A stretch of DNA of 64,000 nt from the NCBI GenBank assembly GCA_025055235.1, contig JANWYN010000113.1, forward strand, positions 1 to 64,000, written 5' to 3'. Origin of the DNA: Candidatus Roseilinea sp. Its GTDB lineage: Bacteria > Chloroflexota > Anaerolineae > J036 > Brachytrichaceae. Made by a program: the position numbers and the translations under genes. Positions 48,637 through 51,001 of the stretch are shown one piece after another (position 1 is the stretch's first letter; the number at the start of each line of letters is the position of its first letter). The notes under the pieces were generated by a model that ran no database searches, was not told where the DNA came from, and saw only the letters and a list, made by a program, of their open reading frames with translations.

Positions 48637-48759
48637 TAAGCCCGGCCTTCGGGCGAGCGTGCCTTGCCCCTCACCCAAGTGAAAGCTCGAACGCTGGCAG
48701 GTTCGCCGCGTTTGTGCCTGCTGCTATGATTCAGCCACGGCGCATTGCCGTCCCATTCC

Positions 48760-49809
48760 ATGTTGAGCCTAACGGAAGTAGCCACTCCCGCGCCCGGCGC
48801 AAGCCGGCCGGCCGAGCCGACGACCACCAAAACGTTTGATGCCTTCGGCAGGCACATCCACTATCTGCGCGTGTCGTTGACGGATCGTTGCAACCTGCGC
48901 TGCGTGTATTGCATGCCGGAGCAGGTGGTGTTCCGGCCAACCGAAGAGCTGCTCACCGACCATGAGTTGTTCACAGTGCTCGAGGTGATGGACGCGCTGG
49001 GCTTCGACAAATATCGCTTGACTGGCGGCGAGCCCACCGTGCGACCGGGCTTGGTCGAGATCGTGCGGCGAATCGCCAGCCTGCCGAACGCGCGCGAAGT
49101 GGCGATGACGACGAACGGCTTGAAGCTGGCCCGGCTGGCCCGGCCGTTGAAGGACGCCGGGCTGAACCGCGTGAACATCAGCATAGACTCGCTGGATCCG
49201 GTCAAGTTCAAGCGCATCACACGCTGGGGAGATGTGCGCGACGTGCTGGCCGGCATCGAAGCTGCCGAGCGCGTTGGCCTGACGCCGATTAAACTCAACG
49301 CCGTGGTGATCCGCGGCTTCAACGAAGACGACGTCGTGCCCCTCGCCCGGCTTACGCTCGAACGCGAGTGGCAGTTCCGCTTCATCGAAGTGATGCCGTT
49401 CGCCGACGTCGCTGAGTTTCAACAGGCGTCCATCGTGCCGACGCATGAGATGATGGCGCGGATCGAAGCCGAACTCGGCCTGCTGATCGAGGAGAACGGC
49501 GGCCGGCTGGACGGCGAAGCTAAGGTCTATCGCCTGCCCGGTGCGCGCGGCACGGTCGGCTTCATCAGCCCGGTGACTGCACCATTCTGCGCGAGCTGCA
49601 ACCGCGTGCGCCTCACCGCCGACGGCACGCTGCGCCTGTGCCTGCTCAAGGACGGCGAACTCGACCTGCGCACGCCGCTGCGCCGCGGCGCAAACAAAGA
49701 CGACCTGCTCGATCTGATCCGCGCGGCAATCTGGCGCAAGCCGTGGGGCCACGACCTGGCGCATGGCGTGATCCCGATGAACCGGATCATGAGCGAAATC
49801 GGCGGGTGA
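48760..49809 (+). CDS. moaA: GTP 3',8-cyclase MoaA
   Basis: 349 aa radical-SAM enzyme; first step of molybdopterin synthesis from GTP. N-terminal Fe-S motif in SLTDRCNLRCVYCMPE, the SAM site LTGGEPTVRP, and the C-terminal second cluster in PFCASCNRVRLTADGTLRLCL. It ends with Gly-Gly, the MoaA GG tail needed for activity. Start ATG at 48760 is chosen over a TTG 15 bp upstream. moaC follows 5 bp on. Confidence 0.96.
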   Translation: MLSLTEVATPAPGASRPAEPTTTKTFDAFGRHIHYLRVSLTDRCNLRCVYCMPEQVVFRPTEELLTDHELFTVLEVMDALGFDKYRLTGGEPTVRPGLVEIVRRIASLPNAREVAMTTNGLKLARLARPLKDAGLNRVNISIDSLDPVKFKRITRWGDVRDVLAGIEAAERVGLTPIKLNAVVIRGFNEDDVVPLARLTLEREWQFRFIEVMPFADVAEFQQASIVPTHEMMARIEAELGLLIEENGGRLDGEAKVYRLPGARGTVGFISPVTAPFCASCNRVRLTADGTLRLCLLKDGELDLRTPLRRGANKDDLLDLIRAAIWRKPWGHDLAHGVIPMNRIMSEIGG

Positions 49810-49814
49810 GCGAT

Positions 49815-50306
49815 ATGGCACTGACGCACCTCGATTCATCCGGCCAGGCACGCATGGTTGACGTAGGCGCTAAGCCGGACACGCATCGCACGGCTGTTGC
49901 GCGCGCGACCGTGACCATGAGCCGCGCAGCCTATGACGCCATCGTGCAGGGCAACGTGAAAAAGGGCGACGCCCTCGGCGCAGCCCGCATCGCCGGCGTC
50001 ATGGCCGCCAAGCGCACCAGCGATCTGATTCCGCTCTGCCATCCGATCACGCTGACGCGCGTCGAGGTCCGCTGCGAACCCGTTGACGGGCGCATCGAGA
50101 TCGAGGCGCGCGTCGAATGCGTGGGCAAGACCGGTGTGGAGATGGAGGCGCTCACGGCCGTGAGCATCGCCGCGCTCACCATTTACGACATGGTGAAGGG
50201 CATGGACCGCGGCATGAAGATTGGCGAAGTAAGGCTGGTCGCGCGCAGCGGCGGCAAATCCGGCGAGTGGACGGCGGATGACTACCGGCATGATCGCGAG
50301 GGATGA
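49815..50306 (+). CDS. moaC: Cyclic pyranopterin monophosphate synthase MoaC
   Basis: 163 aa, family length. ARMVDVGAKPDTHRTAVARA at the start, LIPLCHPITLTRVEV (active-site histidine), and GVEMEALTAVSIAALTIYDM with MDRGMKIGEVRLV. It converts the MoaA product to cyclic pyranopterin. Translation starts 5 bp after moaA; a longer frame opens inside moaA but carries nothing conserved. Confidence 0.95.
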   Translation: MALTHLDSSGQARMVDVGAKPDTHRTAVARATVTMSRAAYDAIVQGNVKKGDALGAARIAGVMAAKRTSDLIPLCHPITLTRVEVRCEPVDGRIEIEARVECVGKTGVEMEALTAVSIAALTIYDMVKGMDRGMKIGEVRLVARSGGKSGEWTADDYRHDREG

Positions 50307-50309
50307 AGC

Positions 50310-50555
50310 ATGGTGATCAAGCTGTTCGCTACGTTGAAGGATCGCGCCGGCGCAGGTGAGATCACCGTCTCGGCGGAGGGCGAGTGTACGGTCGCCGAGC
50401 TGCGCACCCGCATCGCTGCGCAGCACCCGGCGCTGGCCGAGCTGGTCGCGCGCTCGATCGTCGCGGTCAATCGCGAATTTGCCTTCAACGACGACGTGGT
50501 GCGCGCGACGGATGAAGTTGCCCTCTTCCCACCCGTGAGCGGCGGATGCCTATGA
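50310..50555 (+). CDS. moaD: Molybdopterin synthase sulfur carrier subunit MoaD
   Basis: 81 aa ubiquitin-like sulfur carrier. VIKLFATLKDRAG at the start and EVALFPPVSGG at the end. Normally MoaD stops at Gly-Gly, whose carboxylate carries the sulfur. Here the frame continues for Cys-Leu before the stop (GGCL), because the gene overlaps moaE by 10 bp. QbsE-type carriers have a comparable GGCF tail that a JAMM protease trims; none is seen in this window. A base-level sequencing error is the other explanation. Confidence 0.9.
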   Translation: MVIKLFATLKDRAGAGEITVSAEGECTVAELRTRIAAQHPALAELVARSIVAVNREFAFNDDVVRATDEVALFPPVSGGCL

Positions 50556-51001
50556 GTGAGCCGACGATCGTTCGAATCACAACGGATCCAATTGACTTGA
50601 ACGCGCTTCAGCGAGCCGTGACTACGCCACGCGACGGCGCCGTCGTGTTGTTCACCGGCACGGTGCGCGGCGTCACCGGCGCGGAGCGAACCGAGAAGCT
50701 TGAGTACGAGGCCTACACCGAGATGGCGATGGCCAAGCTCCGGCAAGTGGCCGATGAGATGCGCGCCAAGTTCGCGCTGATCCACGGCATCGCCTTGGTG
50801 CAGCGCGTAGGCGAAATGGCCGTCGGCGAGCCGACCGTCGCCGTCGTCGTGAGCGCCGGTCACCGTGGGGACGGCGCGTTCGAGGCCGCGCGGTATGGCA
50901 TAGACCGGCTGAAGCAGATTGTGCCGGTTTGGAAGAAGGAAACGCGCCCCGACGGCTCTGCATGGGTCGAAGGCGATTACGTGCCGAGCCGAGGGGATTA
51001 G
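50546..51001 (+). CDS. moaE: Molybdopterin synthase catalytic subunit MoaE
   Basis: 151 aa. GAVVLFTGTVRGVTGAERTE, LEYEAYTEMAMAKLRQVADEM, RVGEMAVGEPTVAVVVSAGHR and the catalytic-lysine block VPVWKKETRPDGSAWVEGD are all MoaE hallmarks. With MoaD it inserts the two sulfurs that make molybdopterin. Start ATG at 50546 overlaps moaD; ATG at 50552 is the other option. Last gene of moaA-C-D-E. Confidence 0.94.
   Translation: MPMSEPTIVRITTDPIDLNALQRAVTTPRDGAVVLFTGTVRGVTGAERTEKLEYEAYTEMAMAKLRQVADEMRAKFALIHGIALVQRVGEMAVGEPTVAVVVSAGHRGDGAFEAARYGIDRLKQIVPVWKKETRPDGSAWVEGDYVPSRGD

Follow-up and report, generated by a model that had tools for sequence, protein, structure and literature searches.

The Gly-Gly-Cys-Leu end of a Chloroflexota MoaD and its probable uncapping by a shared JAMM protease

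The moaD gene of Candidatus Roseilinea sp. raises the question of how a sulfur carrier can work when its two glycines are not its last residues. Judging from the sequence, a working MoaD would need a free C-terminal Gly-Gly, which is not encoded here, and cleavage would be required. The gene (50310–50555, forward strand) lies in the window, which is the whole stretch of 64,000 nucleotides analysed (contig JANWYN010000113.1, assembly GCA_025055235.1, positions 1 to 64,000). Translation of 50310–50555 gives 81 residues ending in PPVSGGCL before the stop. The codons GGC GGA of Gly78-Gly79 (50541–50546) are followed by the cap codons TGC CTA (Cys80 and Leu81, 50547–50552) and by TGA. A tail of two residues past the Gly-Gly is kept within the genus, and the mature form is predicted to consist of residues 1–79.

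The protein matches the ThiS/MoaD beta-grasp profile PF02597 (E 4e-14, 53.3 bits against a cut-off of 22.5), and its score against the NCBIfam moaD profile TIGR01682 (65.2 bits) is slightly below the cut-off of 66.15. By sequence, its nearest solved relatives are SAMP1 and MoaD proteins. Profile searches of the window ORFs place the gene in a moaA-moaC-moaD-moaE cluster for molybdenum cofactor (moco) synthesis, all on the forward strand, in which it adjoins moaE. The ORF start of moaA (48745–49809; PF06463 and PF04055) is uncertain, and moaC (PF01967, E 4e-55) is given as 49815–50306 with a likely start picked by eye, its ORF being listed from 49638. The moaE gene (50552–51001; PF02391, E 1e-33, and NCBIfam) encodes the large subunit of molybdopterin synthase (149 aa), and its start overlaps the moaD stop in an ATGA (50552–50555) that is kept in four congeners. 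An upstream ATG at 50546, which was the ORF finder's pick for the moaE start, was ruled out by the ACG found at that position in the congener G019. Because the upstream ATG is missing there and the ATGA overlap is conserved, the moaE start is placed at 50552. Scanning the moa cluster for promoters and terminators yielded no signal better than expected by chance, and no slippery run for a frameshift into a MoaD-MoaE fusion was seen by eye at GGCGGATGCCTATGAG.

A sequencing or assembly error that displaced the moaD stop codon would also give such an end, and the window does come from an assembly of 151 contigs (3.99 Mb, 92% complete). Four species of the genus carry this moaD, namely the window genome (G000), G019, G021 and G023. 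The TGC CTA TGA junction is identical in G000, G021 and G023, which all end in GGCL, and G021 is a one-contig assembly. The moaD genes of these three differ at 25–36 of 237 nucleotides (27 for G021, 25 for G023), and most of the differences are synonymous. G019, an independently deposited MAG identical in this sequence to the public MAG HOT.MB2.30 of an Anaerolineae bacterium (locus L027), has CGA CCA TGA, which gives GGRP with the TGA likewise overlapping the moaE start. The VSGG end is invariant across the four congeners. Because four species share a two-residue tail, a base error in a single genome is excluded, and we regard an error at this junction as extremely improbable. The original observation that the frame ends in Gly-Gly-Cys-Leu is confirmed by the codons at 50541–50555 and by the sister species, and the corrected stop directly after Gly-Gly that it had allowed for is excluded by the junctions of G019, G021 and G023.

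Short moaD tails and MoaD-MoaE fusions are common in Chloroflexota. Among the 20 genomes of the same family with a match, moaD ends in GGCL or GGRP in four, in GGAA in one and in exact GG in four, and the remaining 11 have an in-frame MoaD-MoaE fusion in which MoaE comes directly after GG. The long open frame of G043 was rejected as a fusion without JAMM, being a split moaD that ends exactly in GG. On a tree of MoaD and MoaE, whose rooting is unsure, the fused state must have changed a minimum of three times and the two-residue tail twice. By precedent, MoaD-MoaE fusions would need a cut after GG (PMC4326299, PMC8832034); the fusion genomes without a strong JAMM are G075 (about 91% complete) and G010 (75% complete).

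The tail lengths were related to the moaE start by taking offsets from the 3' end of the Gly-Gly codon pair. In the window, GGC GGA resembles a Shine-Dalgarno sequence 5 nt before the moaE start, and the same +5 spacing is found in relatives. The moaE start falls at +5 in 9 families, more than at any other offset, and it lies at other positions in many further lineages. With the form GGAGGN or GGNGGN, the two Gly codons resemble a Shine-Dalgarno sequence. With moaE at +5, moaD stops were observed at +0 (TGACGATG, exact GG), at +3 (NNNTGATG, one extra residue) and at +6 (NNNNNATGA, two extra residues). The tail residues in the Chloroflexota survey vary freely (CL, RP, AA, RA, AR, C, A, R, S and longer ones), and the cap as a specific conserved signal was rejected for this reason. 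The Gly-Gly codons may serve as the ribosome-binding site of moaE. Short caps are probably common because the moaE start signal lies inside the moaD tail, and the tail is probably an arithmetic by-product of the moaD/moaE overlap that is tolerated where a JAMM exists.

A JAMM protease had also been expected in this genome, and one strong candidate was found. The profile search gave a single strong Prok-JAB match (PF14464, E 6e-27) at C120:14442-14825, in a protein of 149 aa. Its motif HSHPDHPSQPSEMD fits H-x-H-x7-S-x2-D with all metal-ligand motif residues intact, and the closest solved chains are 2kcq and 2kks, followed by JAMM1 (5lda/5ld9). The gene is flanked by a cysM-like gene and by a 532-aa ORF whose N-terminal start is uncertain (L005:5923-7521, contig C120). 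This ORF is an in-frame fusion of a CysO-like (ThiS) carrier, MoeZ/MoeB and rhodanese, and a similar CysO-MoeZ junction is seen in most congeners. Because the GG of the fused carrier is internal (VAGG-AAPSP), a cut is needed to release the CysO-like carrier as well. The MoeZ-rhodanese E1 is the only strong ThiF match in the genome, which has three ThiS-family proteins. The third one, a ThiS/MoaD-family protein of 106 aa on contig C124 (L006:4088-4408, reverse strand), has a 17-residue tail after GG (SRAEEGGGDVGAASQRA) and is another candidate JAMM substrate.

The JAMM gene (contig C120) and moaD (contig C131) are on different contigs, and the JAMM clusters with another carrier. Four species of the genus (G017, G020, G022 and G024) keep the JAMM without this moaD, so its main job is probably CysO. 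Since it is kept in such congeners and sits in a cysM-JAMM-CysO operon, it would take on the trimming of MoaD as an additional task. With a single E1 here, and with the mycobacterial MoeZR serving both MoaD and CysO (PMC3227635), it is plausible that both carriers share one E1 and one JAMM.

Caps and JAMM were then compared in 102 Chloroflexota genomes with a split moaD, which were drawn from similarity-ranked lists; a JAMM was called strong when its best E was below 1e-9. Between 1 and 44 residues follow GG in 53/102 of these genomes, and 49/102 end exactly in GG. A strong JAMM is present in 51/53 capped versus 36/49 exact-GG genomes (Fisher p 0.0015, in a genome count that is not corrected for relatedness). 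With kinship handled by family counting only, a capped member occurs in 20/24 JAMM-bearing versus 1/5 JAMM-less families (p 0.013), a family being counted as JAMM-less when a strong JAMM was absent from all of its sampled split-moaD genomes. Four families (f17, f26, f39 and f72) have no strong JAMM in their sampled split-moaD genomes, and all their moaD genes end exactly in GG. Two capped genomes lack a strong JAMM. In the case of G400, one is present in the relatives G365 and G393; the other, G394, has a MoaD-like gene with no adjoining moaE. The association is support for uncapping by JAMM, not proof. JAMM is nearly universal in the phylum and persists in congeners without this moaD, so that finding one does little to identify MoaD as its substrate.

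Taken together, we consider it probable that this MoaD is a capped sulfur carrier of the ordinary kind, comparable to QbsE, PtmS2/S3 and MoaX, and that it is uncapped by the shared JAMM. The Gly-Gly codons would act as the moaE ribosome-binding site, with the ATG of moaE fixed 5 nt behind them, and the moaD stop at +6 would overlap the moaE start, which would leave Cys-Leu as two extra residues. The JAMM of the cysM-JAMM-CysO-MoeZ-rhodanese operon would then cut the MoaD precursor after Gly79, the single E1 (the MoeZ-rhodanese part of the operon) would adenylate and thiocarboxylate Gly79, and the thiocarboxylated MoaD would pair with MoaE. The cleavage of MoaD, the identity of the protease and the use of this E1 are steps that we infer. 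The window genome needs molybdenum cofactor because it has several domains of xanthine-dehydrogenase-family molybdoenzymes. This moaD may not be necessary for it, as five congeners (G017, G018, G020, G022 and G024) have xanthine-dehydrogenase-family domains without it.

Another enzyme, such as a carboxypeptidase or a housekeeping protease, might remove the cap instead of JAMM. The lack of linkage between JAMM and moaD fits this explanation, as does the case of mycobacterial MoaX, for which the cutting protease is unidentified in PMC4326299. We nevertheless think it unlikely, since lineages without JAMM keep exact GG ends and DRJAMM was demonstrated to cut MoaD-MoaE to the C-terminal Gly (PMC8832034). 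Still less likely is that the cap is never removed, so that MoaD is inactive or otherwise employed and the CysO domain or the C124 ThiS-like protein serves MoaE. Such a replacement would be compatible with three ThiS-family proteins in one genome and with the molybdoenzymes of the five congeners that lack this moaD, but moaD keeps its place in the moaACDE cluster, it is strongly conserved with changes that are mostly synonymous, its VSGG end is invariant, and the same-family fusions to MoaE argue that MoaD is the partner of MoaE.

If the shared JAMM does uncap MoaD, lineages that have a JAMM can make a working MoaD from a gene that does not end in Gly-Gly codons, and it would therefore be wrong to call a short-tailed or fused moaD broken. 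Overlap with the start of moaE would also be a simple and testable reason for the exact tail lengths, and cysteine synthesis and molybdenum cofactor synthesis would seem to share a single protease and a single E1. A wider picture for Chloroflexota can be offered tentatively, and we hold it with some doubt. The moaE ribosome-binding site would lie within the moaD Gly-Gly codons and the shared JAMM would have relaxed selection on the moaD stop, so that tails of 0, 1, 2 or more residues interchange freely with one another and with complete MoaD-MoaE fusions; JAMM would thereby couple moco synthesis to the CysO cysteine pathway.

The locus had originally been compared with QbsE-type carriers. QbsE carries a GGCF tail, and the logic of that comparison is apt, with a JAMM present in the genome; however, this JAMM belongs to a CysO/cysteine operon and is no dedicated MoaD protease, and extensions like this one are not rare in the phylum. 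In the QbsE/QbsD and PtmS2/PtmS3-PtmS1 systems, as in the window genome, the carrier has one to two residues past GG and a JAMM is encoded; PtmS2 (MV) and PtmS3 (C) are capped in this way and occur with the JAMM PtmS1 (PMC6006322). E1-type activation follows uncapping in the QbsE/PtmS systems (PMC6006322), and the same is proposed for the window MoaD. Those carriers serve thiocarboxylate natural products, whereas the window carrier is a MoaD beside moaE. The qbsE and ptmS2 genes cluster with their protease gene (this is not reported for ptmS3), whereas the JAMM here is in a separate cysteine operon. The operon type with cysteine synthase, JAB and E1-rhodanese was described in 2006 (PMC1779556), and the JAMM of the window genome likewise accompanies cysM and CysO-MoeZ-rhodanese, as in the CysO-CysM-Mec+-MoeZ pathway (PMC3227635). 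In contrast to that pathway, the window genome has CysO and MoeZ in one protein, from which the JAMM would have to release CysO as well.

MoaX of Mycobacterium tuberculosis is cleaved at Gly82 (PMC4326299), and the Deinococcus MoaD-MoaE fusion DR2607 is cut by DRJAMM (DR0402) to a C-terminal Gly (PMC8832034). As in the window MoaD, their GG is not C-terminal and must be freed for a working molybdopterin synthase. Their extension is a whole MoaE, whereas that of the window MoaD is two residues, although its close relatives have the fusion. SAMP1 is encoded with a terminal GG, in contrast to the GGCL of the window MoaD, and the solved SAMP1 chains end at GG. In Haloferax volcanii, SAMP1 as a MoaD-like protein and HvJAMM1 jointly govern molybdopterin synthase (PMC4443979); for the window MoaD there is no sign of conjugation. 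Carriers capped by one or two residues and accompanied by a JAMM are already known, and the window MoaD would add a member to them.
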